NCBI RefSeq assembly: GCF_008831285.2
Contig: NC_045147.1
Coordinates: forward strand, 11,659,427-11,723,426
DNA length: 64,000 nucleotides
Direction: 5' to 3'
Origin: Nymphaea colorata
Taxonomy: Eukaryota > Streptophyta > Magnoliopsida > Nymphaeales > Nymphaeaceae
Below, piece by piece: positions 12,561 through 59,524 of this stretch. Made by a program: the position numbers and the translations under genes. The notes under the pieces were generated by a model that worked only from the letters and a program-made list of their open reading frames with translations, did not search any database and had not been told where the DNA came from. The stretch's first letter is position 1. Every line of letters begins with the position of its first letter.

Positions 12561-13720
12561 GGCAAAACTTGGTGACTTGCAGACACAGCAAGAAAAAGGA
12601 GAGCTCAATCATGGTTCACCTCGCAAATAAACACTGAAAGAGTGGGTGAGGCATTTCATCGAATGCACTTCGGCTTTTACGATGGCTTCTTGATACCTCT
12701 TACTAAGGGGATTGATTTGTGCTTGTCTAATGACATCTATGAATCATGCTGGATTTATTTTCACAGAAAGCCCGATGAGAGTTTGTAGGACGAGTCTCTA
12801 TTATGTTTGTGTCCTATTGTGGTTGGTATGAAATGAATGATGGTCTTATGTGGAAAACAATTGATGGAGGAGCTGTGGGATTAATTATGTGTTGTGGGAG
12901 TATCAAGCCCTTGAAGTGATTCAGGAACAGATTCTACTTCACAGGCAGTTTAGTCATTTGATCTGTTCCAGAAGGGCTAGAGGAAGTAAGAGAAAATAAT
13001 TATATACATTGTGGTTGAAAGCAGCCTTGTAGCATGGTTACCTGAAGGAAATACTACTGTCAATTTAAAGATCCTTGTTGATCATTCTTGCTCAAGAACA
13101 TAAGGCGAAATGGAAACACGAGAAGGATAGAAGTGAATAAGTGGTAGCCGAAGTGGTCTGGTAGAATGTCTAGCAGTAAAGGAACATATGGTAAGAAGTC
13201 CATTGCTGATCTTACTTCTATAAGGACCCATGGTGATTCGAGAGATTACATGCCATGTACTACAGTTGGACTCAAGAAAACAGAATTAATTGTATTTGTT
13301 TTTATGTGACATATATCATTTTAACATCTCCGGTGATAAATTTAGAATTCTTACAGGTCACACCATTCTCCTTGAAGCATCAATTTTAGCATATCTTAGC
13401 AGCTTCATAATTTTTTTTTCTCGTTAAAGCATAGAAGTGATAGCAGGTATCTAATGTTTTGTGATTGGTACTTGAGCGTGTGAGCATCCTTCTGAGTCTA
13501 ATGGGTTAGAAAAATGTTCCGTTGAACCTTGAGCTCTTTTTTTCTTTTTGTAATGATACTTCTCGGACTGCCTTAAGCTATATTTTGAATTTTACTAATT
13601 TTTGCTAAAATTAAATTTTTGTCCCATATCATTTAGGAATATGCATTGTTTGTATTCACATTTTAATGTGCCAATGTCTTGCACTCGTTTACTTGGTGCA
13701 GGATAGGGGATTTTAAATCC

Positions 13721-36956: not shown

Positions 36957-37760
36957 TAGAGGTTGGAAGGTTCTACGTATTTAAAAAAGAACTACAAGTA
37001 TTGTGGTTCATTTTGCAATTCATAAGAACCTAGCTAAGTGCAAATACAAAACCAAAATTTAGATCACCAACTTAACTTGGAGGCGGATCCAAGTAAAATC
37101 TGGCCCACTTATATGATTCATATACAGGTGAAATTTCAACGGCGCCACGTTCCAATAAATATCCAAACAAGAAAGATAAATTAAGGATGAGACAAATTAA
37201 TCTGTTGATAGAAGTCCAGTTGTACTCACTGCACTTATGAGAAAAATGTAGAAACAAAAAACAAACAACACCATGCATTTGCTTTCGAATACCAGATCTG
37301 TTTCGGTGATCATCATGGAAGTGGTGACCTGCTGGGCCACCTTGGGGAAGGAGAGCAATTGGCGGCACCTTCAGCCGGAGAGAGATCGCCGGTGGCGAAG
37401 CTCATGTCAGTAATCACAAGCTTTGCCGTTCAATTCAAAGGCCAAGAGGCGGGTGTATGCATTCAATGCAACCTTGGAGATTGTGTAGGAGGGGAACTTG
37501 AGGGTAGGTGTGGGTTAATTGTGGGTAATTCTAAAAATTCTTAATTTTATATTGATATTTCTGAGTAATTTTTCATCCATTAATTGATTATTTGAATATA
37601 TATTTGACCAGAATTTTCCGACTCGGCCCTTGCTTAGGGGCCACTTGTCCATGCCCTTCTCCGCACCCCACCGATCTTCTGCTCTGTAAAGCCAACCGCA
37701 TCAGAAAGCTGCTTCCTCAATTCATCATCCCCTATAAGCTGCTATCATCATTGTTGATTT
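36957..37760 (-). pseudogene. SDR pseudogene C: disrupted exon 5
   Basis: Going down the minus strand from about 37745, the exon-5 start (DDELRKQLSDAVGFTEQKIG) is visible. It is followed by a deletion of about 40 nt, then the region before the active-site Tyr. This is split by a foreign insertion of about 125 bp at 37506-37632 that ends in GGGCCGAGTCGG. The rest of exon 5 (AFELNGKA to the LSPAEGAA region) continues to about 37330 with frameshifts. The 3' flank 36957-37310 is nearly the same as 56262-56630. Confidence 0.75.
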
Positions 37761-39936
37761 ACAGTCACAAAACTCATTCCCTAGAAATCTTGTGATATTT
37801 TATAATATTTAGCTTTTTTTTAAGAAATCTTAAAAAAGAAAAAGTATTGAAATATATATTACAAAGTGTGAGGCAAGAGTCCCCTTTGTATAAAATGGGA
37901 ACTTGAAAAGGGTCGATGAGATCATATATCAGATTGATCTCCACTCATTTGGCAAGCTACAATCCAAGTGCAATCATTCTTGACCGAGAATATCAACTTA
38001 GAGAGTGCAGTGTTTTGTTTTCTTGTGAAAAGGAAATCTTAGAGATGGAAACGTGTGAGAAGCTGCAAGTGTATAACTTGTGATTGAAAGTATGTTTTTT
38101 CTATTTTTGATTCTTTTGCCACTGGTCGGTTTTAGTTTGAGATGACTGTGATAAGTCATCTATGGTTTCTTTGATGACATTGGTATTCTTTGCAAGAGCT
38201 CCGGCCCCATTATTGGAACAAGACGGGTAAAGAGAATTGCTTGTTTTAACCAAATCAAGCAACTTCAAAGAGGGAAAGCAGATTGAATATGTGGGCACTG
38301 CAGATTGAACTAAATCTTAGAGGCCAAAAAGTGCCCGAGAACTATAAAAATGTAAAAAAGTGTCCTTTGCGAAATTTGAAGAAGTAAATTGTCTTTTCGA
38401 AAAGATGAAAATTCCCTTAAACGAAAAAAAAAACCCTGCAAAACAGAAGATAAAAAGCCTCTGGCATGTCGGGTTTATTTAACCCATGGCGCCTCGCCCT
38501 GGGCACAGTCAAAGAGGACGTTTGATTGCAGGAACGCTTATGTTCCAGAACACCTTCAAACATATTTGCTGCTTTGGGGTAACGCTTTTTCAATGCATTT
38601 CAGGCATCCCCTCCACCCACCCTAAATGCTTACTTAATCCAGATGATTTTGTTGTTGAAACAGGTTTTTTTTGTTTAGCTTTTTTTTTTCAATCTGTTTT
38701 GTGCATAGTCGGCAAACCCGTGACTCATATTTGGATTGACAGATGACCGATCAATGAGTTGACTTGTCGACCCGGTCGAGTTTTAAAATAACCATAATGT
38801 AACAGCAAATCACTACAGCTGAATCGGAAGAGTTAGGGCAAGTTGGGCTGAGTCGGCCCAACCTTGACTCATGACCAAATTTTTTTAGCGATCCGAGCTG
38901 ACTTGAGCAATTCCTGAGCCAATTGGGCCAGTTTGCCAACTACTTTTTTGTGTTGCCTAAGCTTCAAAATAATACCATTCGTGGAAGAAGAGGTCGTCGA
39001 CCTTGTGTTCGCTAGCCGTGTAGAAGAAAAGAAACTACTGAGGAGCTGAATTTGGACACGGAATCAGATCTTCCGAATCAAACCATTGCTGTCACACTTA
39101 TTCAATATGATAATTTTGTATTTAAATACTTTGTAGAACCTTTTTTTCAATTTTTTGAAGGGACCGTTTTGCAATAATCAAGTGAGACATTGGGGCACGT
39201 CGTCTAAGATGTCTTATAAAACGGACATGGTGTCATTACGTCTCTTTTTATTTATCGTTCTTTCTGCCAAAAAGAGTATTACGTAGCTAGTTGGAAAGTG
39301 TATATACAAGTGCACAAAAATATGAAGAGCGTGTCATTGACTTACTCTGGTGCTTGCCTACACAATTGTAAAATGAAGCCAGGTTCTCAAGAATAAGTTT
39401 ACATTAAAAAAAAAAATTGCTTACAAAAAATTGACGTTTTTCCATATTAATCAAACAGCTAGACAAAGTGGCATCTCTTTCTCTTTCTCGAGACACCACG
39501 GTTGACAAAAAAAAAAAATGCATTAGGTAAAATTTATGCCGTGCAAAACTTTATCATCAATCAAACAGCTATGCAAAATGGCATCTCTCTCTCTCTCTCT
39601 GTGTTTGTGTGCATGTGCTTGTGCGTGTGTGTGGGGAGACAGCATGGTTCGAATTATTGCTAGGTGAGGTTGTCCCTCTCATGAACTAGATATTTTATAC
39701 CGTAAGAAATGCAACCAAGTATGGTGTCCTCACTGCAGTTCCTCCGAGTAAAAACCAATAAAACAAAAGGATTTTTGAGAGTTGAATGCCGATCGAATGG
39801 ATGATAAATAATAAGCTTACACCAATTACAGCAACTGATAATCAAAACGGACATTTAGAATCATTACACAGACGCTGCTGTCCTTGTTGTTTTTCTTTAT
39901 TATTTCCACTTGGGAAAGCATCACTGGTGCTGCCAC
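37761..39936. other. Spacer without recognised gene
   Basis: The start matches intron-4 sequence of the SDR genes (CAAAACTCATTCCCTAGAAA). Further on are a GAGTCGGCCCAACC-type repeat at about 38740-38940 and CT/GT microsatellite tracts at 39475-39635. A 65-codon minus-strand frame at 38101-38298 is not recognised. Confidence 0.4.
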
Positions 39937-41420
39937 TTATTTTATCTCCTTGTAAGGAGCAAACAGTGTGGAAGAGCTGTGGCCACCAAAGCCGAACGAA
40001 TTCGACACAGCCACTTTGATACCTAGCCTCTCCTTTTTAGGGCCAACCAGCAACTTCGCATCCTGCAACATCAGATCACATGATCTTGGTACATGTCAAC
40101 TCTCTCTCAATGTTTGTGCAGATTCAAAACAGCATAATATTGACAGTTAAAATCTAGTGAGCAGTTGGGGAATTTTAAAATTTCCTACTTTTTTAGTTAA
40201 AAGGGTAACTAAAACAACTAAAAAAATTCATTAAGAAGGGCTTAAAATCAATTAAAGAACAGTTCTAAGAATCTGAGTAGCACCGTTTCATGCCTTTAGA
40301 GAAACTGCAAATATGAGTTTGTGTGTCTGTGTGTTTGTGTTTTCATTTCAGCTGCATTCGTGTTTATCTTCACAGAGGTACTTGTTAAAGTAAAGTTAAT
40401 ACAAACCATGCCTGTATCTGGATTTTCCATATTTATGTTTGGATGAACCCAACCTGATCGCATTGCCTGTATTTAGCAAACAATTAGCCACAATTATATC
40501 CATGATCGACAGTGAATCATCGTCTCTGCAATATGAAAACATTGGTAAATATTAACTAAAGCACATAAAACTATATCGCCTGCCTGGTTTGTAACTGAAC
40601 AAAACAGATACGGAACAAAGGAAAAGCAAAAGTACTTGCTGATGATGTTGACATGCGTGTTCACATTCAACAGCAACAATACATCTGGTTTTTGAAAAGT
40701 TCTCTAACCACACTGAACATAAAGAATGGTCAATTGCACACACACACATATATATGATAGTCACAAGCAACATGTTTTTTTCACCAACAAAAAAAGTGAA
40801 AAAGACGCAATAAATAAAATTGCTGTTCAAAACTTTAAAAACTTCAAAAATGCGGTTTTTGCGTTTTTTTTGCGTTTTTCCTTTTTTTCCTTTTTTTCAA
40901 ATTTTTAATGTCAAACACTTTTTTTCATTTTTGTATTTTTATTTGTTGCAAATCCACTTATTTTATGTTTGTGTTATTAGTTTCTCACTCATTTTATTGT
41001 TTTCCTATTTTTATTTTTTAAATTTTTAAAAATTTACCATTTTTTTCAAGCTCATTGTATTATACCCAAGAAAAATATCATCGTTTAAAACTCCAAAACA
41101 TTATTTCTGATTATGATATATAAATATATATATGTATAATAGACATATATATCTCAGGCATAGCTTCCTCTTTTCTTTTGTGAGTCCAGAATACATCTTC
41201 TTACGAACAGTTACTAACGTAAAATGCCAATATTAGTCATTACAGTATAGCACAAAGTTCTAGCCCTTTCCAAGTACAACAAACTGAAGCCATGTTAGTG
41301 TTTTCTGTTTTGTCTTGCTATTGAATAAGCTGCTTGTACCTGTATTGTAGCAACAGCCTCTACTCCTGCTGCTGCTCCAAGTAGGTGATTGATCATTGAT
41401 TTTGTAGAATTAACATGTAA
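39937..41420 (-). pseudogene. 3' fragment of a plastid 3-oxoacyl-ACP synthase II (KAS II) gene
   Basis: Three consecutive exons with GT/AG junctions, all phase 0, encode the C-terminal 88 residues: 41420-41340 (VNSTKSMINHLLGAAAG), 40466-40407 (RSGWVHPNINMENPDTG) and 40062-39937 (LLVGPKKERLGIKVAVSNSF, then GFGGHSSSTLFAPYKEIK and stop). KAS II condenses malonyl-ACP with palmitoyl-ACP in plastid fatty acid synthesis. The conserved Gly before the catalytic His in GHLLGAAG is Asn here and GAAGAVEA reads GAAAGVEA. I found no upstream exons (active-site Cys, first His) between 41420 and the RPL4 fragment, so this is a truncated copy, though its frame is still open. A complete gene is excluded unless very remote exons were missed. 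Confidence 0.7.
40800..41080. mobile_element. AT-rich dispersed element (copy 2, inverted) in a KAS II intron
   Basis: The stretch with AATGTCAAACACTTTTTTTC, TTATGTTTGTGTTATTAG and AATTTTTAAAAATT is the reverse complement of the element at 10205-10600. It sits in the intron between the second-last and third-last exons of the KAS II fragment. Confidence 0.5.
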
Positions 41421-41479
41421 CTACGCAAAATATTAATTTCAAATCAAAATTTCACAAGGGAATTTACAGTATTGTTTTT

Positions 41480-41800
41480 AGGGATGTCAACGGATCGGAT
41501 TCGGATTAGACATACCTTTTACCATATCTAATTTTTTAGATATTTATATATTCGGATTCGGACTTGGATTCAAATTCAGATGAAAAAAAACTTATGCCAT
41601 GTCCGAATCCGACTTTAAAATCTACATCAGAATCCGAATTTTAAGATATATTTGAATCTGATCCGAATCCGAATTTTAAGTTATATCTGAATCTGACATT
41701 CATGCTATATCCGAATCGGACTTTTAAGTTATATACGAATCCATCCGAATCAGACTTTTAAGCCATATGCAAATCTAATCCAAATCTGATTTATGTATGA
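41480..41800. repeat. TCCGAAT-type dispersed repeat (copy 2)
   Basis: Starting GGGATGTCAACGGATCGGAT, the segment repeats a degenerate unit of about 45-50 bases containing ATATCCGAATCCGA and TTTTAAG five to six times. A more decayed copy lies at 27825-28020. From 41800 to 43096 nothing coding is recognised; a (TA)n tract lies at about 41920-41940. Confidence 0.6.
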
Positions 41801-43096
41801 AAAATGTTCATTAAACATCAAATGAATTAGAAAACCCAATCTTAACATCACACCAGCCCAAACTTGATTGGTGATAATTGTCAGGCTTATTAAAAGAGAG
41901 AGAGAGACCAAACACACACATATATATATATATATATATAATTGTTTTTATTATTTAGAGCATGATTTTTTTTATTATCTGGAGTGATTCACTTTACATG
42001 TGTTTTGTAGTTGAGAAATCTAGTGTGGGCTATTTCAAAGCATGATGTCTACTTTTAATGTCTGGATTTTTTGTGAACCATTGGTCCTCATTATCAACCA
42101 TCTTAATAAATGATGCAATGGAGGGAATATAACTTATATTCGATAAGGCTTACCAATGTACCCAAGGGTCAATGGAAGCACAAAAAATTACCGCCAAATT
42201 GCAAAGAGACAAATCAAATGTATGGTAAATATATGAATGCTTTCTAAAAATAAGTTACATTCTATTGTAACTTACACAACAAAATTGCAACTAAAATTGC
42301 AATTAACCTGGTTAAATTCAGAGCCGAAAGTTGGTCTTGAACAGCCATATTGGCTTCAAAGCCAATGTGGTAAGATGTACATAAGATCCAGATTTACATT
42401 CGACACTTCTTTCTACATAATGCAGTAAGATGTACCTCCTATGAATATGCCAGAAATAACGTCAGTTCGATTCATGACTCCTCTTGAACTCAGGCCTTTG
42501 TGCGATTAATCTAGTAGGTATACCAAGTATCTTTCTTCCAACATTTCCTATATTAAGCTTCGAACCTCACAAATAACACATAACTTGTTCCCTCCTCCTT
42601 GTATGCAACCTTCCTGTAATGTGTAAAGTGTCATGTTTGTGTAATTTCAAAAGCCGGAATAAGATTCAGAAAAGGACTTCCCTCCACAAGATGAACCTAG
42701 GACATACAACCCATGGCCCTTTTCGATTATGGTTTCAGGCCAGACAAAAATCTTTATACATTCATGATATAGATGTTTGCTAAAGAATAACAATTATTTG
42801 GCAGTTCAAAATTTCAGCAATTAAGGGCATTCCTTTCAAAGGAATGACAATTATAATACACACACATGCGTTCACACAATATAAGAAGCACGTGATTTGG
42901 TAAAGCAGAATGCATAATATGAATCATAAACATAATACATACGACAGTCTATTAATGGTTAAGTCATATAAATAACAGAAAATAGAAACAGTATAATATT
43001 ACTAAAAACAGTTATGCAACATATTACAGTGTACATATTACTAGAAAATTAGAAATCAGAAATAGTCATACATACAAAGAGTATAAAACAGAAAAT

Positions 43097-43378
43097 CACT
43101 TCACCCTTAGCCTTCACCGTCTGCTCCCCTCTGCTCCTCAGCAAGCAGAGCCATCCACCTCACGGTCTTCGCATAGTGATTGAGCTTTAGGAGCGCATGG
43201 AGGTTCTTCTGCGGATTCTTCTCTCCATCTTTGCGGGCTTCATGACCGACTGCACTTCGTCGAAGTTAATGATTCTTGCTAAATCGACATTTATTATTTT
43301 AGCCCTGGGAAGAATGTACGCAGTCTTTTTCTCTGACACCTTGTCTATGGAACCAACTGATTGTAGACCAATGCCCAT
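43097..43378 (-). pseudogene. RPL4: Ribosomal protein L4 (uL4) pseudogene fragment at the satellite edge
   Basis: The minus strand reads [19 protein letters not shown], then [18 protein letters not shown], matching the C-terminal third of plant RPL4 (family pattern SEKK-GYVLPRAK and [17 protein letters not shown]). After a deletion and frameshift it continues in another frame as [31 protein letters not shown] and, after a short insertion, VKAKGEV, all as in RPL4. RPL4 is a protein of the cytosolic large ribosomal subunit. This piece is broken and starts within the protein. The part up to SVMK is the same sequence that forms the arms and loop of every satellite unit to the right, while the part from KNPQ on is not found in them. 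The fragment is therefore the likely seed of the array. Confidence 0.85.
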
Positions 43379-46300
43379 CTCGCCAGCCCGGCCACCGGTT
43401 TGACCACCGGTGGCCGGAATTTCAAGAAGTCATCTAAATGGTGGGAAGAAGTCATCTGAATTTCAAGAAATCGTCTGAAAGGCAGGAAAAAGTCGTATGA
43501 ATTTCAAGAAACCGTCGGAATTTCAAGAAGCCGTCGGAATTTCAAGAGTTAGTCTTCGATCCCTTGGTACCATAGAGTAGGTGTCAGAGAAAAAGACTAG
43601 GTACAATCTTCTCAGGGCTAAGATAACAACGACATTAGTCTTCAATCACTTGGTACCGTAGAGTTGGTGTCGGAAAAAAGACGGGGTACAATCTTCTCAG
43701 GACTAAGATAACAAATGCCGATTTAGCGAGAATCATTAACTCCGACGAAGTGCAGTTGGTCGTGGAGCTCGCGAGATCGACATTTGTCATCTTTGCCCTA
43801 TGAAGAATGTATCAAGTCTTTTTCTCTCACACCTATTCTACGGAACCAAGGGATCGAAGACCAATGCCAATCTCGCCTAAGTTCCACGTCTTCTTGAAAT
43901 TCCGATGGCTTCATGAAATTCTGATGGCTTCTTGAAATTCTGGCCAACTTCTTGAAATTTTGACAGCTTCATGAAATTCAGACAATTTCTTCTTCGACAC
44001 TTTGTCTATGTAACCAACTCATTGTATACCAATGCCGAACTCGCCAACTTGGCCATTGATTTCTCCTCCAAGGCCAGAATTTCAAGAAATCATTTAAATG
44101 AAGGGAAGAAGTCGTCTAAATGGTGGGAAGAAGTCGTCTGAATTTCAAAAAGCCATCGGAATTTCAAGAAGCCGTGGAACACTGGCGAGATCGGCATTGG
44201 TTTTCAATCCCTTGGTTCCGTAGACTAGGTGTCGAAGAAAAAGACTGGGTACATTCTTCTCAGAGGTAAGATAACAAATGCTGATTTAGCAAGAATCATT
44301 AACATCGACGAAGTGCAGTCGGTCATGAAGCTCGCGAGATCGGCATTTGCTATCTTTACCCTGGAAGAATGGACCTAGTCTTTTTCCTAGACACCTAGTC
44401 TACGGAACCAATGAATCCAAAACCAATGCCGATCTCACTTGAGTTCCATGCCTTCTTAAAATTCTGATGGCTTCATGAAATTCTGATGGCTTCTTAAAAT
44501 TCCGATGCTTCTTGAAATTGAGACGATTTCTTCTCAGACACCCTGTCTACGGGACCAACTGATCGTAGACCAATGCCGATCGCGCCAGCCCGGCCACCGG
44601 TGTCACCTCTGGTCGCCAGAATTTCATCTAAATGGGGGGATAAAGTCGTCTGAATTTCATGAAGTCATCTGAATGACAGGAAGAAGTCGTTTGAATTTCA
44701 AGAAATCGTCTGAAGGGTGGGAAGAAGTCGTCTGAATTGCAATAAACTGTCGAAATTTCAAGAAGCCATCGGAATTTCAAGATTCCGTCGGAACTAAGGC
44801 GAGATTTGCATTGGTCTTCGATCACTTGGTATCGTAGACTAGATGTCGGAGAAAAAGACCGGGTACATTCTTCTCATGGCTAAGACAACAAATGTCGATT
44901 TAGCGAGAGTCACTAACTCCGACGAAGTGCAGTTGGTCGTGAAGCTTGCGAGAACAACATTTGTCATCTTTGCCCTCGTAAAAATCTACCTAGTCTTTTT
45001 CTCCGACACCTAGTCTACGAAACCAAGGGATCGAAGACCAATGCCGATCTCGCCTGAGTTCTGCGGCTTATTGAAATTCCAACGACTTCATGAAATTTCG
45101 ATGACTTCTTGAAATTCCAGCCGACTTCTTGAAATTCCAATGGGTTCTTGAAATTAAGACGATTTCTTCTACAACACCTTATCTATAGAACCAACTGATT
45201 GTAGACTAATGCCGATCTCGCCATCCCGGCCACCAGTTTCACCTTCGGTGGCCAGAATTTTAAGAAATCATCTGAACGATGAGAAGAAATCGTTTGAATT
45301 TCAAAAGAATCTGAATGACGGGAAGAAGTCGTCTGAATTTTAAGAAATCGTCTAAATAACGGGAAGAATTCATTGAATTTCAAGAAGTCGAAATTTCAAG
45401 AAGCCATCGGAATTTCAAGAAGTCAGCTGGAATTTCAAGAAGCCGCCAAAATTTCAAGAAGCCATGAAACACAGGTGAAATCGGCATTGTTATTCGACCT
45501 CTTGGTTTCGTAAACTAGTGCCGGAGAAAAGGACTGGATACGTTCTTCTCAGGGCTAAGATAACAAATGTTGATTTAGAGAAAATCATTAACTCTGACGA
45601 AGTGCAGTCAGTCGTCGAGCTCACAAGATCGACAGTTGTCATTTTTGTCTTGGGAGGAATGTTCCCAGTTTTTTCTCTACACCCTATCTATGGATGGAAC
45701 CAAGGGATCGAAGGATGATAAAGATCTCGCCTGAGTTCTATAGCTTCATGAAATTCTGATGACTTCATGAAATTCTGATGGCTTCTTGAAATTCAGACGA
45801 TTCTTTTCTGACACCTTGTCTATGGAACCAACTAATCGTAGACCAATGCCGATCTCGCAAGCCCGGCCACTGATTTCACTTCTAGTGGCCTGAATTTTAA
45901 GAAATCATCTGAATGGCAGGTAGAAGTCGTTTGGATTTCAAGAAATTGTCAGAAGGGCAGTAAGAAGTCGTCTGAATTTCAATAAACTGTCGGAATTTGA
46001 AAAAGCTATCGAAATTTCAAAAATCCGTTGGAACTTAGGCAAGATTGGCATTGGTCTTCGATCGCTTCGTACCATAGACTAGGTGTCGGAGAAAAAGACA
46101 GGGTACGTCATTTTCATGCCGAAGATAATAAATGCCGATTTAGCGAGAATCATTAACTTTGACGAAGTGCAGTCGGTCGTGAAGCTCGCGAGATCGGCAT
46201 TTGCCATCTTTGTCCTCAGAAAAATGTACCCAGTCTTTTTCTTCGACACCTAGTCTATGGAGCCAATGGATCGAAGACCAATGCCGATCTTGCCAGAATT

Positions 46301-49300
46301 AGTCTACGGAGCCAAGGGATCGAAGACCAATGCTGATCTTGCCTCTTGAAATTCAAACGATTTTTTCTCTCACACCTCATCTACGGAAGCAACAGATTGT
46401 AGACCAATACTGATCTCGCCAGCTCGGCCATTGGTTTCTCCTTTGGTGGCTAGAATTTTAAGAAATCATCTGAATGGCGGGAAGAAGTCATTTGAATTTT
46501 CAAAAGTCATTTGAATGGCGAGAAGAAGTAGTCTGAATTTCAAGAAATCGTCCAAATGGCGGAAGAAGTCATGTGAATTTCAAGAAGCCATCGAAATTTC
46601 AAGAAAACAGTAGGAATTTCAAGAAGCCATGAAACAATGGCGAGATCGGCATTGGTCTTTGATTCCTTGGTTTTGTAGACTAGGTGTCGAAGAAAAGGTC
46701 TAAGTACATTCTTCTTAGGGGTAAGATAACAAAGGCCGATTTAGCGAGAATCATTAACTCCGACGAAGTGCATTCGGTCGTGAAGCTCGTGAGATTGGCT
46801 TTTGTTATCTTTACCATGGAAGAATGGACCCAGTCTTTTTCTTCGACACCTAGTCGACGGAACTAAGGGATCCAAGACCAATGCCGATCCCACCTGAGTT
46901 CCACGACTTCTTGAAATTCCGATGGCTTCATGAAATTTTTGATGGCTTCTTGAAATTCTGGCCGACCTCTTGAAATTCCAACAGCTTGTTGAAATTCAGA
47001 CGATTTCTTCTCCGGCACCCTGTCTACGAGACCAACTGATTGTAAACCAATACCGGCCACCGGTTTCACCTCCGGTGGCCAGAATTTCAATAAGTCATCT
47101 AAATGGCGGGAACGAGTCGTCTGAATTTCAAGAAGTCATCTGAATGACAAGAAGAAGTTTGAATTTCAAGAAATCGTCTGAACAGCAGAAAGAAGTCGTC
47201 GAAATTTCAAGAAGCCATCGGAATTTCAGGAATCCGTCAGAACTTAAACGAGATTGATCTTCAATCATTTGATACCAAAGAATAGGTGTCGGAGTAAAAG
47301 ACCGGGTACATTCTTCGCATGGCTGAGATAATGAATGTCGATTTAGCGAGAATCATTAACTCCGACGAAGTGCAGTCGATCGTGAAGCTCGCGAGATCGG
47401 CATTTGTCATCTTTGCCCTTAGAAAAATGTACCCAGTCTTTTTCTTTAACACCTAGTATATGAAACCTAGAGATCGAAGACCAATGCCGATCTCGCTTGA
47501 GTTTCGTAGCTTCTTGAAATTCCGACGGCTTCATGAAATTCCGATGACTTCCTGAAATTTCGTTCGACTCTTGAAATTTCGATGGCTTCTTGAAATTCCG
47601 ACGATTTCTTCTCCGACACCTTATTTACAGAACCAACAGATCGTAGACCAATGCCGATCTTGCCACCGTGGCCACCAGTTTCACCTCCGGTGGCCAGAAT
47701 TTCAACAAATCATCTGAATGAAGGGAAGAAGTCATTTAAATTTCAAGAAATCTACATGGTGGGAAGAAATTGTCTGAATTTCAAGAAATCGTCTAAATGG
47801 CAGGAAGAAGTCATTTGAATTTCAAGAAGTCGTCGGAATTTCAAGAAGTCAGCAGAAATTTATAGAAGCCTTTTGGAATTTCAAGTACCCATGGAACATA
47901 GGTGAGATCGGCATTGGTCTTCGATTCCTTGGTTTCGTAGAATAGTTGTCAGAGAAAAGTATTGTTTAGGTTCTTCTCAGGGCTAAGATAACAAATGCCG
48001 ATTTAGCGAGAATAATTAACTCCAACGAAGTGCAGTCGGTCATAAAGCTCGCGAGATCGGCATTTGTCATCTTTGCCCTAGGAAGAATGTATCCAGTCTT
48101 TTTCTCTGACACCTAGTCTATGGAACCAATGGATCGAAGACCAATGCTAATCTCGCCTAAGTTCCACGTCTTCTTGAAATTCTGATTGCTACATTAAATT
48201 CTGATGGCTTCTTGAAATTCTAGCCGACTTCTTGAAATTCCGACAGCTTCATGAAATTCAGATGATTTCTTATCTCACACCTTGTCTATGGAACCAACTG
48301 ATTATAGACCAATGCCGATCTCACCAGACCGGCCACCGACTTTATCTACAGGGGCCAAAATTTCAAGAAATCATTTGAATGGCAGGAAGAAGTTGTCTGA
48401 ATTTTAAAAAACAGTCAAAATTTTAAGAAGTCAGCCTGAATTTTATGAAGTCGTCGGAATTTCAAGAAGACGTGGAACACAGGCGATATCGGCATTGGTT
48501 TTCGATCCCTTGGTTCCATAGACTAGGTGTTGAAGAAAAAGATTGGGTACATTCTTCTCAGGGGTAAGACAACAAATGCCGATTTGCGAGAATCATTAAC
48601 TCCGATGAAGTGCAGTCGCTCGTGAAGCTCGCGAGATCGGCATTCAGTTTTTTTCCCAACACCTAGTCTACGGAACCAAGGGATCGAAAACCAATGCCTA
48701 TCTCACCTGAGTTCCAGACTTCTTGAAATTCCGACGGCTTATGAAATTCTGATGGCTTCTTGAAATTCTAGCCGACTTCTTGAAATTCTGATGCTTCTTG
48801 AAATTCAGACGATTTCTTCTCAGGCACCATTTCTACGAGACCAATTGTTCGTAGACCAATGCCAATCTCGTCAGCCCGGCCACCAGTTTCACCTCTGATG
48901 GCCAGAATTTCAAGAAGCCATCTAAATGGTAAGAAGAAGTCATCTGAATTTCAAGAAGTCATCTGAATGACAGGAAGAAGTCGTCTGAATTTCAAGAAAT
49001 CGTTTGAAGGGCGGGAAGAACTCGTCTGAATTTCAATAAACTATCAGAATTTCAAGAAGTCGACCAGAATTTCAAGAAGCCATCAGAACATCGTGAAGCC
49101 GTCAGAATTTCAAGAAGCTATGGAACAAGAAGTCAACCGGAATTTCAAAAAGCCATGGATTACAGGTGAAATAGTCCTTGGTCTTCGATCCCTTGGTTTC
49201 ATAGAGTAGGTGCTGGAGAAAAAGACTGGATACATTCTTGTCAGGGCTAACATAACAAATGCCGATTTAGTGAGAATCATTAACTCCAACGAAGTGCAGT

Positions 49301-49969
49301 CGGTCATGAAGCTCACAAGATTGGCAGTTATCATCTTTGTCTTGGGAGGAATGTACCCATTCTTTTTCTTCAACACCTTGTCTATGGAACCAAGGGATCA
49401 AAGAACGATGCCAATCTCGCTTGATTTCCATGGCTTCTTAAAATTCTAACGGCTTCATGAAAGTCCGATGGCTTCTTGAAATTCCGGACGACATCTTAAA
49501 CTTTGATGGCTTCATGAAATTCCAATGGCTTCTTAAAATTATGGCAGACTTCTTGAAATTCCGACGGCTTCTTGAAATTCAGACGATTCTTTTCCGACAC
49601 ATTATCAATGGAACCAACTGATCATAGACCAATGCCAATCTCGCCAGTCCGGCCACCGGTTTCACCTCCAGTAGCTAGAATTTTAGGAAATCATCTGAAT
49701 GGTGGGAAGAAGTCATTTGAATTTCCAGAAATCGTTTGAAGGGCGGGAAAAAGTCGTTTGAATTTCAAGAAATCATCTGAAGGGCGGGAAGAAGTCGTCT
49801 GAATTTCAAGAAATCGTCTGAAGGGCGGGAAAAAGTCATCTGAATTTCAATAAACTGTCGGAATTTCAAAAATCCGTTGGAACTTAGGCGAGATTGGCAT
49901 TGGTCTTTGATCACTTGGTACCGTAGACTAGGTGTCGCAGGAAAAGACCAGGTACATTCTTTTCATGCT
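43379..49969. repeat. Palindromic RPL4-derived satellite, block 1 (about 10 units)
   Basis: Tandem units of about 563-683 bp, with loop centres near 43731, 44294, 44908, 45583, 46148, 46749, 47351, 48011, 48591 and 49274. In the unit at 47284-47453 the arms 47284-47350 and 47388-47453 are inverted copies with few mismatches around a 37-nt loop; arms and loop in plus sense read as RPL4 ([27 protein letters not shown]). Complementarity continues outward through ACCAAGGGATCGAAGACCAA and its inverse, then through many 20-24 bp subrepeats of GAATTTCAAGAAGCCATCGG type, to a second dyad GGCCACCGG...CCGGTGGCC (e.g. 47670-47695). Short open frames on both strands are by-products, not genes. Units differ by 10-20 percent by eye, so the array is not recent. 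Confidence 0.93.
47284..47453. repeat. Example hairpin core of one satellite unit
   Basis: Left arm 47284-47350 begins GGTGTCGGAG and ends TTAGCGAG; right arm 47388-47453 begins CTCGCGAGATCGGCATTTGT and ends near AACACC. Each is close to the reverse complement of the other, around the 37-nt loop 47351-47387. The loop retains the single-copy RPL4 codons for ARIINSDEVQSV. Confidence 0.9.
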
Positions 49970-51102
49970 TGTTCGCATCTTCAAATTTTTTGGTTTTTGG
50001 AGTGCTCCAAAAAATGAGATTTTTATTTGAAATGGAGAGAGAAAGGGGACTCACCCATCGGTACGAGGATCAATCGTTCTCGCACCTTTATCAGGGGTAA
50101 TCAATCCAATGGTTATGTCTATTATTTATGCATTTCATTTTAACTTAAACATCTTTTTTTATTCTATATGTTGTGTAAGAAAATATTGAAAGTTTTAATG
50201 TTTCAAACTTTTGAAAAGGTTCTTGAAGAATCATTTAAGAATGTGAAATATTTTAGGGAAAACTAGAATTGAGAAATCTTTGTAAAGATCATTTGGAAAA
50301 CATGAGAAATCATTTTGAAGTCACTTTAGTGTTCTCTTAAGATTTTAAGTAGGTTTGAGATTTTGCTCTAATTCGGTTACTACCTAGTTAGAGCTTCATC
50401 TCATTTTGCTTAAATTCTTTTGGAGAGGTGCTTGTGATCATAAGTGATATTAAGTGATTGTGGATGCGTGAATGCATTGATCCTATATAATTGAAAGAAA
50501 ATAAAACATTCCAAATACAACATTCATCTAAGACATTTCTACCATAACATACATCTAAGATTTTTGTTTATATAGTCAGCATAAATGTTTATGAAGAAAG
50601 AAAAGTTTTGAAAATAGATTGAGGTTGGGGTTGGGGTTGTAGACCATCAAACATGAATTCAATATTGAGTCATTACTTGAGTATTGGTCTTAGTGAAGTC
50701 GATAAATGGAAATGATCTTAAACCATGAGAAAAAAATATTTGAAAGGATGGAGAAGATGAAATACTCTTCTGGAGAGAAAGAGAGATAGAGAAAGGGATT
50801 TCAAAGATTTTTAAACAGAAGATTTCAAAAGGATGAGAAGATGCATATCTCTATATGTATGCATATACGTATATATGCTCTTGACAATGAGGTCTTAACT
50901 TAAGTAGAATGAGAAAATGAAATGAGGTCTTAATTTAAGTAGAATGAGAAAATGAAACTTTTAGAAGAAAGAGGGAAAGAAAGGGAGATAGAAAGAGATG
51001 CATATACATGTGTATATACCATCACATATACACATATATAAAATTTGGTAAAAATGATATTGATTTGAATAGAAAGAAAGATTTTAAAGGAAAATATATA
51101 GA

Positions 51103-51147
<45 letters not shown>

Positions 51148-52530
51148 AAATTTATAGATGAAGACATTTGAGTTGAAAAAAAGATTATAGAGATAGAAAA
51201 TAAGACATTCATGTAGGTATTAAAATAAAATATAGAAGCATAGAGAGAGGAAAATGAAAGGAATCATCATGTTGATACATATGTATATAATATGTATACA
51301 CATATGTGTCTTCATGAGATTAGAAATCAAGAAATGAAAAATAACAGACTTCAAGTTTGATGTAGGCCGAAGGGAAGTTTGGACTCATGCAAGAGTTTAA
51401 GCTAAGTCCCCAAAGCCACATTAGAATGTCTCTTTTAAAAATGTTTTGGAAAGTATGATTTATATAAACATAGAATGTTATTATTTGGTTTGTCACAAGG
51501 GATATATTTCTTCCACCGTTGGTTGTTGAAGAAAAACAAGTAATATAATGAGGCACTCGTTAGGGTTCTTAATTGGGTGATTAGGAAGAAAAATAGCATA
51601 AAATGACATGCAAATACATATTAACATGTACATTTTTGTGAGGATTTTTCTCGGGTTGGACAAGTCCCAACCTCAAAATTTAATATGAAGATAAAGATAA
51701 ACAACCCTAAACCACACTTTCATTCTCACCATACATTCACATATAAATGGAAAACCAAACAACTATGCATGGATAATATATAGACAATCTTTAAAGAAGG
51801 AAAAGAGAGAGATTGAGAGCATGATGGAGAGAGAAATGTTCAACTAGGAGGGAGGACATGGTGTAACTATGAAATGATATACCATCTCATCTTCTCATGC
51901 TCCCGGTGCACTTGAGCATAGCCTTTTGACTCTAAACTAGAGATTGAGAACTATCTCATACGGCCATTGGGAGATGAAGAAGGGGAAAAAATGAAGAAGC
52001 AAAACAAGACAATTTTTGAGAAATGAAATAACATGATTCAAGCATGAAAATAAAAGATCATCTCATTTTCTCATGCTCTCGGTGCACTCAAGCATAGCCT
52101 CTTGACTCTAAAATGGAGATTGAGGGCTATCTCCTTTGACCATAGGGAGAGGAAGAAAAGAGAAAAATAGGAGGAAGCAAAAGAACAACAAGAATGTATT
52201 CAAGAAATGAGAGAACATGATTCAAGCACATCTCCAAATTCGTTCTAAATCCGATTTTGTTTAGTCGGTTGTCAACTCATTCGAGCGTGCGACTTGGGTT
52301 TTTTTTTTAAAAAAAAATGTTTTGGTGTGAGAAATGAGTTCTGAAAACAAAGGAAAGGTCCGTGCACGTGCGACACTCAAATTTTGTCGTTTCAAACTTG
52401 ATTCTAATTTTGGGTTTGAAATGCTTGATTTCGATTTGAACTTAGGTTTTGGATCTAATTTGGATCCAAAGGTTGGGTTTTGTATTTTAATAAAAGAACG
52501 TATCATTTGAAAAAATTCGGGTTGATTACA
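49970..52530. mobile_element. 2.56-kb solo-LTR-like insertion in the satellite
   Basis: The segment starts TGTTCGCATC and ends GGGTTGATTACA, so it has TG...CA ends. It is flanked by ATGCT on the left and ATGTC on the right, an imperfect 5-bp duplication of the satellite target ATG(C/T)C. Satellite sequence continues across it from TTCTTTTC to CGAAGATAA, as in the intact unit at 46110-46135. It has no recognisable coding sequence. It contains a two-copy tandem repeat of about 175 bp at 51880-52230 (CTCGGTGCACTCAAGCATAG), a two-copy repeat of about 36 bp near 50890-50960 and a (TA)n tract at 51109-51144. A large gypsy-type solo LTR is the best reading. Confidence 0.65.
51109..51144. repeat. (TA)n microsatellite
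   Basis: About 18 TA units lie inside the solo-LTR-like insertion. Confidence 0.95.
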
Positions 52531-55500
52531 ATGTCGAAGATAAAAAATGCCGATTTAGCGAGAATCATTAACTCCGACGAAGTGCAGTCGGTCGTGAAGC
52601 TCGCGAGATCGATATTTGTCATCTTTGTCATCGGAAAAATGTACCCAGTCTTTTTCTCCGACAGCTAGTCTATGGAACCAAGGGATCAAAGACCAATGCC
52701 GACCTCACCTGAGTTTTGCACCGTCTTGAAATTCCGACGGCTTCTTCAAATTCCAGCCGACTTCTTCAAATTCCGATGGCTTCTTGAAATTCAGACGATT
52801 TCTTCCATAACACCTTATCTACAAAACCAACAGATCATTGACCAATACTGATCTCGCCAGCCCGGCCATCGGTTTCACCTCTGGTGGCTGGACTTTTAAG
52901 AAATCATCTGAATGATGGGAAGAAATCGTTTGAATTTCAAGAAGTCATTTGAATGGAGGGAAGAAGTCGCCTAAATGGCAGGAAAAAGTCGTTTGAATTT
53001 CAAGAAGCCATCGAAATTTCAAGAAGTCAGCCAGAATTTCAAGAAGCGGTGGAACACTGGCGAGATCAGCGTTGGTTTTCTATTTCTTGGTTCTGTAGAC
53101 TAGGTGTCGGAGAAAAATACTGGGTATATTCTACTCACGGGTAAGATAACAAACGTTGATTTAGCGAGAATCATTAACTCCGATGAAGTGCAGCCGGTCG
53201 TGAAGCTTACGAGATCGGCATTTTTATCTTCACCCTGGAAGAATGGACCCAGTCATTTTCTCCGACACCTAGTCTACGGAACCAAGGGATCGAAGACCAA
53301 TGCCGATCTCACCTGAGTTCAATGACTTCTTGAAATTCCAACGGCTTCATGAAATTCTGATGGCTTTCTGAAATTCCAACCGAATTCTTGAAATTCCAAT
53401 GGCTTCTTGAAATTCCGGCTGAATTCTTGAAATCCGATGCTTCTTGAAATTCAAATGATTTATTCTCCGACACTCTATCTATGGGACCAACTGATCGTAA
53501 ACCAATGCCGATCTCACCAGCCCGGCCATCGGTTTCACCTCCAGTGGCCAGAATTTCAAGAACTCGTCTAAATGGAGGCAACAAGTCATCTGAATTTCAA
53601 GAAGTCATCTGAATGACAGGAAGAAGTCTGAATTTCAAGAAATCGTCTGAAGGGTGAGAAGAAGTCGTCGGAATTTCAATAAACTGTTGGAATTTCAAGA
53701 AGCCATCGGAATTTCAAGAATCCGCCGAAACTTAGGCAAGATTGGTCTTCAATCACTTGGTAGGGTAGAATAGGTGTCGGAGAAAAAGACCCGGTACTTT
53801 CTTCTCATGGCAAAGAAAACAAATGCCGATTTAGCAAGAACCATTAACTCCGACGAAGTGTAGTCGGTCGTGAAGCTCTCAAGATCGGCATTTGACATCC
53901 TTGCCCTGGGAAAAATGTACCCAGTGTTTTTCTCTGACACCTAGTCTACAAAACCAAGGGATCGAAAACCAATGCGATCTCGCTTGAGTTCTGCGGCCTC
54001 TTGAAATTTCGACAGCTTCATGAAATTTTGATGGCTTCTTGAAATTCTAGTCGACGTATTCAAATTCCGATGGCTTCTTGAAATTTAGACGATTTCTTCT
54101 CCGACACCTTATCTATGGATCAACTGACCGTAGGCCAATGTCGATCTCTCCACGCCGGCCACCGATTTCACCTTCGGTGGCCAGAATTTAAAGAATCATC
54201 TGAATGGTGGGAAGAAGTCGTTTGAATTTCAAGAAATCTGAATGATGGGAAGAAGTCGTCTGAATTTCAAGAAATTGTCTAAATGGCGGGAAGAAGTCGT
54301 CGGAATTTCAAGAAGTCGTGGAACATAGGCGAGATCAGCATTGGTCCTTGATCCCTTGGTTTCGTAGACTAGGTGTCGAAGAAAAATACTGGATACATTC
54401 TTCTCAGGGCTAGGATAACAAATGTCAAGACGAAGTATAGTCGGTCGTGAAGCTCACAAGATCGGCATTTGTCATCGTTGTCATGAGAGGAATGTACCCA
54501 GTATTTTTCTCCGACACCTTGTCTATGGAACCAAGGGATCGAAGAACGATGCCGATCTTTCCTGGGTTTCATGGCTTCTTGAAATTCCGGATGACTTCTT
54601 GAAATTTTGATGGCTTCATCAAATTTTGATGGCTTCTTGAAATTCTGGCCGACTTCTTGAAATTTTGACGGCTTCTTGAAATTCAGACGATTCTTTTCCG
54701 ACACCTTGTCTATGGAACCAACTGATCGTATACCAATGCCGATCTCGCCAGCCCAGCCACCGGTTTCACCTCTAGTGGCTAGAATTTCAGCAAATCATCT
54801 GAATGGCAAGAAAAAGTCCTCTGAATTTCAAGAAGTCATTTGAATTTGAAGAAATCGTCTGAACGGCGGGAAGAAGTCGTCTGAATTTTAATAAATTGTC
54901 GAAATTTCAAAAAGCCATCAAAATTCAAGAATGTGTCGAAACTTAGGCGAGATTGGCATTGGTCTTTGATCACTTGGTACCGTAGACTAGGTGTCGAAGA
55001 AAAAGACCGGGTACATTCTTCTCATGGTTAAGATAACAAATGCCGATTTAGCGAGAATCATTAACTTCGACGAAGTGCAGTCGGTCGTGAAGTTCACGAA
55101 ATCAGAATTTGTCATCTTTGCCCTGGGAAAATGTACCCAGTCCTTTTCTCCGACACCTAGTCTACGGAACCAAGGAATCAAAGAGCAATGCTGAACTCGC
55201 CTAACTTCCACCGCTTCTTGAAATTCCGATGGCTTCATGAAATTCTGATGGCTTCTTGAAATTCCGGCTGACTTCTTCAAATTTCGATGGCTTCTTGAAA
55301 TTGAGACAATTTCTTATCTGACACCTTATGTACGGAACCAACAGATCATAGACCAATACCGATCTCGCCAGCCCAGCCACCGGTTTCACCTCTGGTGGCC
55401 AGAATTTCAAGAAATCATCTGAATGGTGGGAAGAAGTCGTTTGAATTTCAAGAAATTGTCTAAATAGCAGGAAGAAGTCATCGGAATTTCAAGAAGCCCT

Positions 55501-56190
55501 TGGAAGTTTATGAAGTCTGCTGAAATTTCAGGAAGCCATCGGAATTTCAAGAAGCCGTGGAACTCAGGCAAGATCGACATTGGTCTTCGATCCATTGGTT
55601 TTGTAGACTAGGTGTCGGAGAAAAAGACTAGGAACATTCTTATCAGGCCTAAGGTAACTCCGACGACATGCAGTCGGTCGTGAAGCTCACAAGATCGGCA
55701 TTTGTCATCTTTGCCCTGGGAGGAATGTACTCAGTCTTTTTCTCCGACACCTAGTCTATGGAACCAAGGGATCGAATACCAATGCTGATCTTGCCCGAGT
55801 TCCACATCTTTTTAAAATTCCAACGACTTCGTCAAAATTCAATGGCTTCTTGAAATTCCAGTCGACTTCTCTAAATTCCGTTGGCTTCTTGAAATTTAGA
55901 CAATTTCTTTTTCGACTCCCTACAGAACCAACTAATCGTAGACCAATGCCGATCTCACCAACGCGGCCACCGGTTTCACCTCCGATGGCCAGAATTTCAA
56001 GAAAAGTCATCTGAATGGCAGAAAGAAGTCATCTGAATTTCAAGAAGTCATCTGAATGATGAGAAGAAGTCGTTTGAATTTCAAGAAATCGTCTGAACGG
56101 CTTGAAGAAGTCGTCTTAATTTCAAGAAACCGTCGAAATTTCAAGAAGCCATGGAACTCAGGCGAGATGGGCATTGGTCTTCTATCCATG
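52531..56190. repeat. Palindromic RPL4-derived satellite, block 2 (about 6 units)
   Basis: It continues block 1 after the insertion: loop centres lie near 52562, 53169, 53839 and 55055. Two further units have internal deletions of the loop or inner arms near 54428 (the AATCATTAACT part is missing) and 55655. Unit spacing is about 590-670 bp. The last recognisable piece ends GGGCATTGGTCTTCTATCCA at about 56190, followed by unrelated sequence and then SDR pseudogene D. As in block 1, both strands show short frames ending around TGYI, DEVQSVV and MYPVFF because the unit is its own inverse. Confidence 0.92.
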
Positions 56191-56261
56191 TACTCATCCG
56201 TGTTACACTCCTTTTAGCTTTGAGAGTTAGGTTGAGGGGGTATGCCATGTCGCATTTTTAG

Positions 56262-56800
56262 AGGTAGAGGTTGGAAGGTTCTACCTATTTAAAAAAGAAC
56301 TACAAGTATTGTGGTTCATTTTGCAATTCATGAGAACCTAGCGAAGTGCAAATACTAACCAAAATTCAGATTCATTTTATAAATTACCATCTTAACTTGG
56401 AGGCGGATACAAGTAAAATCTGTCCATAAATGATTCGTAAACAGGTGAAATTTCAATGGCGGCATGTTGAAATAAATATCCGAACTAGAAAGATAAATTA
56501 AGGATGAGACAAATTAATCTGTTGATAGAAGTCCAGTTGTATTCACTGCACTTATGAGAAAAAAGTAAAAACAAAAAACAAACAACACCCTGCATTTGCT
56601 TTCGAATACCAGATCTGTTTCGGTGATCATCAGAACCCGACATTCTTGCTTTCATGGAAGTGGTGACCTGCTGGGCCACCTTGGGGGAAGGACAGCAACG
56701 CGTACCAAATTGGCAGCACCTTCAGCCGGAGAGAGATCGCCGGTGGCGAAGCTCATGTCAGTAATCACAAGCTTTGCCGTTCAACTCAAAGGCCAAGAGG
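56262..56800 (-). pseudogene. SDR pseudogene D: truncated exon 5, twin of pseudogene C
   Basis: From about 56800 down, the minus strand shows the second half of SDR exon 5 (ELNGKA, LSPAEGAANLVRVA, then HFHESKNVGF with stop near 56630), broken by indels. Upstream of the break, at 56801, unrelated sequence begins. Its 3' flank 56262-56630 matches 36957-37310 nearly base for base (e.g. AACTACAAGTATTGTGGTTC in both). The two pseudogenes are thus a duplicated pair in direct orientation about 19.3 kb apart. Confidence 0.75.
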
Positions 56801-57349
56801 ATTATGTTCACCAAATTTTAGTGCTTGATGTCTCGCATTGACAGAGGACGACTGCCAGTTCGGTCCATACTCATTTAGGCTACTTGGAGAAATGTTTAAT
56901 AATTGGAGACATACAAATTATTTAGCCAACACCGCTACATGTTGATTCTTTTGGAGCGATCAACTATGACTGGGGCCAAGGCCAAGCAAGTCAAATTATT
57001 AGTAAAGGTTTCTAATAACAATAAGAACGATTTTGCGTTTGTTTGCTTGATATACCCTTGGTGTTTCAATTTAACCCAAAAACAAAACTACAAAATATTA
57101 GATTTCATTGGCAAGGAGAATCTAACTGCAGATACTAACCAAATACAGATTCATTTTAAATTTATATGTCCATCATAACCTGGCAGACAATCCAAACTTG
57201 AACTTAAGATTGCCATTGCCTCAAATTTCAGCAAATATCCAAACAAGAAAGGTAAACCAAGATAGATTAAGTTGAGGGCGAAAAAAGAAAAACAAAAAAA
57301 CAAAATCATTACACATTTGCTTTTGAATTCCAGAACTTTTTGGTGATCA

Positions 57350-59524
57350 TCAGAACTTGGCATCCTTACCTTCAAGGAAGTTGTGGCCAGAAAGGCCACC
57401 GGCGGGGAGGAGAGCAACACACACCAAATTCGCGGCCCCTTCAGCCGGAGAGAGATCGCCGGTGCCGAAGGTCATGTCAGTCATCACATAGCCAGGGGTG
57501 GCACTATTGACACAAGCTTTGTCGCCCAATTCAAGGGCCAAAAGCCTCGTGTATGCGTTCAACGCAATCTTGGAGACGGTGTAAGAAGGAACCTTGAGGG
57601 GCCACTTCTCCATGGCCTGTTTGGATTTCAGATCTTCAAGGAACGTGTCTAACACCTCATCAATCTTTTGCTCCGTCAACCCCTCTGTATCGCTCAATTG
57701 CTTCCTCAACTCATCATCCCTGAGAAACTGCTAGCATCATTGTTGATTTACTGTCAATTTTATATATCTATCTTTGGTTTAAGAACACTTGGAAAACAAA
57801 AAAAAATTGATTTGTTTACTACTTGCAAAAAAAAAAATAAAGCCATATGAGCTTACGGGGTTGAACCAGGGAACAGATTAATGTTGGAGACTTACAAGAA
57901 GTAGTCCGTAGACGGATGAGACGTTGACAATCCTGGGCTTGTAAGAAGAGGGGCGCAGGAGAGGGAGCAACGCCTTGGTCACCCTCTTGGTTCCGTAGAA
58001 GTTGGTCTCTATGCAGTCCTTTGCCGACTCCTGCTTCTCCAGTATCCTGTTTAAGCATGGAGGATGTACCTGTGTATAATCCTTTTCTCAAGGAGAAAAA
58101 TAAAAAAATCAACACACATGTACAAACACACACACACTCACAGTTTTCAAGATTCTGAATTACACTTCAAAGAAGACAATAGTCTTTGACAATAGCTTCA
58201 ATTAAGGAAACTTTTATACCAGTAATTGTCATGCACACAGACCTGTGCACATTTGCGCCGTGTACAAGCCTGGGATCATGACCAGGTTCCCAAATCTTTA
58301 TGGGGTAAACGACTCGTTAATTGTTTTAGTTGCCGACTCGTTATTCCTTAAAATATCAACACCCTAAATTTTCTTATCTAAGCGTAAATGGTTAGGTAAT
58401 CTATTCATCTATATTGAAGAATTGATCTAAAGGAATAATTCATTGTATAGAATCCTTGCCCAGAGCATGCATTACATATAGTTTAAATGGTCAGAAAGAA
58501 CGCTGCCACAGTTGAAGCTGAAACTGTTCCACAAAATGTGCAGACGACGGCTTCTTCAGTTTATGGAATCAAATAAAACGCCTCCTAATACAAGGGCATA
58601 CGAATTTCATGAACTAGGAGAGAGGAAGAGGGAGAGGGTACCAGAAAGGTTCTCATGTCTACATTGTTCTGTTCCAAGAACTTCCAATCAGCATTTAGAA
58701 CAGCAGCGTTGTTTACCTGCATCAACAATATATTTTCTGCTTAATCAACCTATGAAAATTAATATACCTTGGGGCTTTTATTTTAAATCAACTTTATGGC
58801 GAGAAGAGGAAAAGAAGCTTCATTGATGAGCGAAAAGTTCGAGGAAACTTTCTTTCACGATGCTTGATACTTGATTGCCCCTACAAAATAGGAAATCAAT
58901 CGAACACCAGGGTTCGATACTCGAGCGCTTTTCTTCCCTCTTGCGAGGAAGGTCTGAACATACAAGGAATTAATTTCTATTATACTTCGTGTCTAATAAG
59001 TTTGGTTTCTGATGTCAATTGATTTTTATTGAAAGCGTTTGACCGACACGTAGGGAGGATGGAAACCTAACAACTTTTGGTTTCTACTTACCAGAATGTC
59101 GATAAATCCAACATGTAGCTTCAACCAGTCGACGAAATTCATCACACTCTGCCGTTGAGTAATATCGAGAGTGTGGAAGATGACCTTCTTCCTCCCCAAT
59201 TGTGCCGCCTCCTGCAGGAACTGTTGAGCAGAGGCTGAAAGTTCCTCTTGTGGCCTACGAGCAGTCATGATGACGGTAAGCCCCTTTTCTGCGAGCTGCC
59301 GGCAGACTTCCAGCCCGATCCCTCGGTTCCCTCCCGTCACCACCGCCACTGTCTCCTCACTCCACCACTCTGAAGTACCCTGCGCTTCCTGCAACCAAAA
59401 TTAAACCGGTCGACGTTTATCATCGGATCGATCCAGAAGATGTATCGGCAGCCAGGTTCTAGGTAACAAATTTCCTTGACATAAAAGTTCTTTGGGGTGT
59501 TTTTCATCAAGATTTGCTCACCAT
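57350..59524 (-). CDS. SDR4: short-chain dehydrogenase/reductase, complete copy
   Basis: Coding exons 59524-59522 (ATG only), 59388-59092, 58716-58642, 58069-57896 and 57727-57350 join in phase 0 to 308 residues. TGGNRGIG is at 19-26, NNAA at 102-105, Asn in TNFYG at 148, Ser in VSSVYG at 177, Tyr/Lys in YTVSK at 232/236, so the catalytic tetrad is complete. Exon 3 is two codons shorter and exon 2 one codon longer than in SDR1. The start of exon 4 (VHPPCLNRILEKQ) differs from all paralogues, as expected for the variable substrate region of the family. The proline motif VNSATPGYV replaces the VNSVHPG of the others. It is the most compact copy (2.2 kb) and the best candidate, with SDR1 and SDR3, for an active NADPH-dependent reductase. 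Confidence 0.9.

Follow-up and report, generated by a model that had tools for sequence, protein, structure and literature searches.

A tandem array of repeats derived from a gene for ribosomal protein L4 (RPL4; protein uL4) lies in a 64-kb stretch of Nymphaea colorata DNA (contig NC_045147.1, positions 11,659,427 to 11,723,426), referred to here as the window. Mapped with an arm consensus, the array occupied 43267..56187 on the plus strand and comprised ~10.4 kb of repeat and a 2.56-kb insertion. Array homology started at 43233/43267 and ended at 56187 (unit self-search; arm-consensus mapping). No further copy of the unit was found in the window outside the array, either by the unit self-search (E 1e-5) or by the arm-consensus mapping. 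So far, within the searched window, this is one small local array, old and with recurring unit types, and the satellite status proposed in the initial annotation is putative. The units are arranged head to tail, with 16 whole units plus partial ends, ~17 units in all. Borders were placed at 16 GC-hairpin anchors found by pattern and at one decayed anchor set by eye (44051), which gave the 16 whole units. The 15 contiguous units were 541-773 bp long and shared a mean identity of 80.2% (range 72-87%). Tandem Repeats Finder, with a longest allowed period of 500, reported only short subrepeats in the array, mostly of 19, 22 and 41 bp.

Each unit is a near-palindrome, formed by a plus-strand L4 arm (L), a 37-nt loop and a minus-strand L4 arm (R), followed by further parts. 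The rest of the unit consists of minisatellite stretches with periods of 19/22 bp, one more short L4 piece, the third (S), and a small hairpin rich in GC. The minisatellite stretches precede L in one sense and follow R in the opposite one. Mapping of the 118-bp arm consensus revealed a regular L(+)/R(-)/S(-) layout (L ~118 bp, R ~110 bp, S ~59 bp), with losses in individual units. The small hairpin, GGCCACCGG...CCGGTGGCC, closes the unit; it was found in 12 copies with ≤3 mismatches, and in none of 100 shuffles. The minus-strand arm R, the piece S, the alternating unit types and the insertion at 49970-52530 were absent from the initial annotation of this DNA and were found here. The example unit 7 (47055-47669) folds as one long predicted hairpin of -248.9 kcal/mol (z -14.7 against 20 shuffles). 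Predicted folding energies of all 15 aligned units ranged from -0.37 to -0.50 kcal/mol per nt on the plus strand and from -0.32 to -0.50 on the minus strand. Every one was stronger than 20 pieces from outside the array, not matched for GC (mean -0.244, minimum -0.295 kcal/mol per nt). The parts of the array are as follows (LTR, long terminal repeat); type letters are those of the arm tree described below.

43097..43384, minus strand: left-edge copy E, the longest RPL4 fragment, uL4 ~268-351 with frame breaks (from uL4 matches and arm mapping; far end, ~43097-43103, set by eye)
43390..44050, plus strand: unit 1, type B, part of its L arm additionally duplicated with an 85-bp period (43549-43714)
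44051..44591, plus strand: unit 2, type A1
44592..45227, plus strand: unit 3, type B
45228..45864, plus strand: unit 4, type A2
45865..46425, plus strand: unit 5, type B
46426..47054, plus strand: unit 6, type A1
47055..47669, plus strand: unit 7, type B, the example unit; L arm aligned over 47240-47358 (the final 8 bases belong to the loop), loop at 47351-47387, R arm at 47388-47497 and S at 47606-47664
47670..48330, plus strand: unit 8, type A2 on its arm features, with weak placement in the unit tree
48331..48877, plus strand: unit 9, type A1, part of the R arm lost
48878..49650, plus strand: unit 10, type A2
49651..52863, plus strand: unit 11, interrupted by the insertion (49970-52530), its left L-arm piece assigned to type B by eye, outside the unit alignment
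49970-52530, no strand assigned: solo-LTR-like insertion, 2,561 bp, starting with TG and ending with CA
52864..53523, plus strand: unit 12, type A1
53524..54156, plus strand: unit 13, type B
54157..54754, plus strand: unit 14, type A2, with a deletion of the inner L arm
54755..55374, plus strand: unit 15, type B
55375..55964, plus strand: unit 16, assigned to A2 by eye, with weak placement in the unit tree and a deletion of the inner L arm
55965..56187, plus strand: partial last unit, which stops 27 bp into the L arm

The RPL4 identity of the unit segment, as given in the initial annotation, was confirmed by protein comparison. The 44-residue unit consensus, in which one in-frame stop was written as K for the query, matched residues 268-307 of plant uL4 with a best E of 1.2e-12. 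All but 3 of the 59 sequences listed up to E 1 for this query were named L4, uL4 or L1a; the remaining names were KLLA0B07139p (two) and 'Ribosomal protein, putative' (one). The left-edge copy E, used unaltered, matched uL4 residues 268-316 (E 4.9e-14) and, in the next frame and collinear with the first stretch, residues 321-351 (E 2.6e-07). Because copy E matches both stretches, the seed of the array was a broken RPL4 piece of 84 residues or more. The longer fragment in opposite orientation reported at the left edge is thus present, on the minus strand and extending to residue 351. With significant uL4 matches for both the unit consensus and copy E, a truncated RPL4 copy as the origin also held.

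That every unit contains a segment translating as RPL4 was true of the segment but not of the translation. The plus-sense peptide could be aligned over 30-32 residues in 12 of the 16 whole units, and three of these have an internal stop (47289, 47949, 53777), leaving 9/16 stop-free. One of the other four units is frameshifted (48533/48583), one is split by the insertion (49887...52537) and two are without the inner part (54376, 55615). In the right part of the split unit, a gapped 30-residue match was obtained at 52510, the start of which is insertion sequence. Titles and abstract openings in the literature on RPL4 and ribosomal proteins contained no satellite derived from this gene, in line with the initial annotation, which is weak evidence, with few subscription papers covered. 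In the relevant parts of PMC10218199 and PMC13364442, the terms sought occur only in senses unrelated to RPL4.

The order of inversion and amplification was read from an alignment of 15 L arms, 15 R arms, 15 S pieces and copy E. Five pieces were left out, namely the L arm of unit 11 (split), the duplicated L piece at 43549-43629, the final, incomplete L (56161-56187), and the incomplete R and S of units 9 (48645-48707) and 16 (55920-55959), respectively. In the arm tree (FastTree, printed without support values), one group comprised the full set of 15 R arms and the truncated L arm at 55567, and the remaining 14 of the 15 L arms formed three L-only groups. All 15 S pieces were in one group, which also holds copy E. 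Identities were 80.1% (L-L), 81.7% (R-R), 80.0% (S-S), 76.9% (L-R), 72.0% (L-S), 84.1% (S-E) and 79.6% (L-E). A codon for lysine in plant uL4 is AAG in E, in 8/15 S and in 2/15 R; it is TAG in 13/15 L and 12/15 R, and in 0/15 S. The shared TAG indicates that most L and R arms descend from one mutated ancestor. Since L, R and S copies cluster by their position in the unit and most L and R arms share this codon change, the inverted composite unit predates amplification, and the proposed sequence of inverted duplication followed by amplification is supported. The outer arm end reads, when reversed, like the inner NADLA-coding bases, with 17/18 positions matching in the R consensus (shuffles, ≤13/18). 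The mean match was 11.9 over the 11/15 scorable L arms and 13.5 over the 13/15 scorable R arms. This reversed match is a hint of a fold-back origin of the inversion.

Along the array, the types follow the order B, A1, B, A2, B, A1, B, A2, A1, A2, (split unit, B by eye), A1, B, A2, B, A2. A unit tree of 15 of the 16 whole units (unit 11 left out) separated 9 A from 6 B units with a bootstrap of 91. Within it, five of the six B units were grouped with a bootstrap of 99, all four A1 units with 92 and three of the five A2 units with 95. Mean identity at lags 1-5, calculated for the first ten units, was 78.0, 80.5, 78.2, 80.4 and 78.5%, higher at lags 2 and 4 than at the three odd lags.

In 11 ungapped L segments from the 16 units, changes were spread over the three codon positions as 29, 35 and 36, and there were 30 synonymous changes against 32.3 expected. 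This even spread and the lack of a synonymous excess show that the repeats are under no coding constraint. A functional RPL4 gene or coding repeat was rejected on the stops, the frameshift, the TAG in 13/15 L arms and the same lack of synonymous excess. Decay in the 15 aligned units was biased by context. Transition rates were 0.198 at CG, 0.187 at CHG, 0.083 at CHH and 0.038 at A/T sites, so that transitions were ~5x commoner at CG and CHG than at A/T sites. An excess at CHG is a mark of silencing-type methylation in plants. The CG/CHG bias fits a methylated plant repeat, and the array is probably methylated. Observed/expected CpG was 1.0 in the array versus ~0.6 in the flanks, a level that fits a CpG-rich seed which, while decaying, is still above the local level.

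On the two sides of the insertion in unit 11 stand ATGCT and ATGTC, both of which differ from ATGCC by a single C-to-T change. These flanks are read as a putative decayed 5-bp target duplication of ATGCC, the form suggested by intact units (e.g., at 46086), and the insertion itself as a candidate solo LTR. No similarity to it was detected elsewhere in the window at E 1e-3. It is AT-rich, purine-biased on the plus strand, and contains an internal direct repeat whose copies, at 51872-52044 and 52048-52228, have diverged.

Taken together, we consider it probable that the locus is a gene-seeded, hairpin-structured tandem array, now silent, decaying and probably methylated. In this reading, a truncated copy of plant RPL4, the pseudogene fragment covering ~uL4 268-351, underwent an inverted duplication, for which we infer fold-back synthesis as the route. 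The inverted piece became joined to a short minisatellite with periods of 19/22 bp, and the resulting near-palindromic unit was ~615 bp long. This unit was then amplified in tandem, presumably by unequal exchange and partly as multi-unit blocks, leaving the largely alternating A/B pattern. The array yields no protein, and its sequence has drifted with the CG/CHG transition excess expected of a methylated, silenced repeat. Finally, an LTR element would have landed in the array, to be reduced to the present solo LTR.

Several observations weigh against parts of this sequence of events. The reversed match behind the fold-back step is weak in copy E, at 11/18. The alternation is broken at units 8-10, and identity at lag 7 was 82.5% (3 pairs, first ten units), contrary to a simple even-lag rule. 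The unit tree is not independent but descriptive, because the types were named from the arm tree. The context bias was read against a majority consensus, the minisatellite stretches align poorly, and methylation is deduced from this pattern. Furthermore, a 60-bp block of the inner L arm and loop (consensus 301-360; ~47327-47386 of the window in unit 7) had a divergence of 0.067, versus 0.125 in the arms. Being half as diverged, it is not predicted by uniform drift. Its low divergence held in all four site classes and was reached by 0 of 20,000 column resamples, with block limits that were picked after viewing the divergence profile. Neither coding selection nor pairing explains the block; local gene conversion or a use at the DNA level could.

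As an alternative, the array could be part of a DNA transposon of the foldback-like, MULE, Rehavkus or Helitron type, whose captured RPL4 fragment piled up in tandem. Foldback elements have long inverted arms built of short tandem subrepeats, and the capture of gene fragments is common among plant DNA transposons; both count in its favour. The window, however, has no copy of the unit outside the array, whose flanks at 41001-43266 and 56151-58500 share no inverted match (three matches of 12-22 bp, E 0.66, all in plus orientation). By eye, there is no target duplication at the array ends, although the true ends may be lost, and no Helitron-type end comes after the small hairpin. In Tribolium, short tandem arrays of the satellite TCsat23 sit within the inverted termini of Rehavkus-1_TC, as set out in the relevant part of PMC10218199. 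With such tandem repeats known from inverted transposon termini, a transposon origin was kept as an unlikely alternative.

The array might also be a hairpin-RNA locus. Its transcripts would fold into ~16 long hairpins, and the RPL4-derived arms would be diced to small interfering RNAs (siRNAs) against RPL4 or RPL4 pseudogenes. The predicted fold of the example unit and the stronger folding per nt of 15/15 units over the outside pieces agree with this. Tandem hairpin loci exist, such as the 20-copy hp-CG4068 of Drosophila melanogaster (relevant part of PMC10317233), and MIRNA loci have been founded by inverted duplication of coding genes (relevant part of PMC1790633). The unusual conservation of the 60-bp block speaks for it as well; this block, however, lies mostly in the unpaired loop, the arms are ~23% mismatched, and the context-biased decay suggests silencing. 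Pairing of the arms was examined by two alignments of 14 units. In the fixed alignment (14 of the 16 units; 9 and 11 left out), arm identity was 77.1% within units versus 76.5% between units (P 0.095). A local-alignment version, in which the L arm at 52558 is mostly insertion sequence, gave 78.3 versus 78.3% (P 0.43). As arms match no better within than between units, their pairing is not maintained, and co-maintenance of the arms was rejected. Because of the conserved block, the hairpin-RNA reading was retained, as a rather improbable one. In its specific form, a read-through transcript from a tandem locus seeded by RPL4 would give a chain of hairpins, the diced products of which would damp RPL4 paralogues or pseudogenes, with the 60-bp block as a trace of use; this we regard as very doubtful.

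A chance likeness of an unrelated satellite to RPL4 has nothing in its favour, is ruled out by the E values of 1.2e-12 and 4.9e-14 to plant uL4 together with the collinear second stretch to residue 351, and can be practically disregarded.

The gene-seeded array was compared with known systems, as described in the relevant parts of the cited papers. Known sources of satellites include rDNA spacers, transposable elements and MITE-like elements (PMC5615363). In those cases, as here, a piece of another sequence was amplified in tandem and the units drifted apart; in contrast, the seed here comes from the coding part of a ribosomal protein gene and is held in a palindrome, and one small local array was seen. 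The pericentric satellite of P. subdepressus, with a unit of 72 bp, accounts for 20% of the genome (PMC8122249). It resembles the array in having inverted repeats within the unit and two variant clades that alternate along the array; unlike for the RPL4-seeded array, a gene origin is not mentioned in the passages concerned. TCsat23 in Rehavkus-1_TC (PMC10218199) shares the tandem repeats in inverted orientation about a centre, whereas neither transposon ends nor dispersed copies were found here, within the window. The Drosophila hp-CG4068 and hp-tHMG clusters (PMC10317233) are likewise tandem inverted repeats, and some hairpin RNA arms are homologous to a coding gene. Those clusters make Dcr-2-dependent siRNAs, whereas the array is known from sequence alone, and its arms, unlike theirs, are ~23% mismatched and not co-maintained. 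As in the plant MIRNA loci of PMC1790633, part of a protein-coding gene was duplicated in inverted form; nearly all of those loci, however, are single genes with a small-RNA product, and here an old amplified array is found, the evidence for which is genomic.

At 43.1-56.2 kb of the window, the array is flanked by pieces of short-chain dehydrogenase/reductase (SDR) genes. Ten of the listed open frames of the window were run against Pfam, and nine had a match. The neighbouring features are:

388-822, 8693-9172, 17477-17911, 22286-22807, 57353-57730 and 59029-59400, minus strand: SDR gene pieces (Pfam adh_short or adh_short_C2)
13667-14599, plus strand: frame of a PPR-repeat protein, with 311 codons open (Pfam)
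61934-62344 and 63221-63682, minus strand: Copia-type retroelement pieces (Pfam RVT_2, retroviral SH3-like domain)

With its SDR pieces, PPR frame and Copia-type pieces, the window content looks like plant nuclear DNA. The sequences at 56262-56800, which begin 75 bp to the right of the array end, and at 36954-37449 are paralogous (85.6% identical) and lie near SDR 3' ends. In the search for an empty site, the left flank (38000-43150) was without a partner resembling that of the right flank, so that no empty site could be demonstrated. No known RNA family reached the gathering score, and no tRNAs were found. The exact 30-base loop pattern had 0 matches in viral contigs, a result of little weight as the collection is viral only.

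The array represents a legible case of a tandem repeat that started from an ordinary gene, an unusual origin for a repeat. The order of the steps, from gene piece, inversion and composite unit to amplification, decay and LTR hit, is readable because a longer piece, still with the ancestral lysine codon, survives at the left edge. If the array gives small RNAs, it would tie the birth of a tandem repeat to the inverted-duplication model of small-RNA gene birth.

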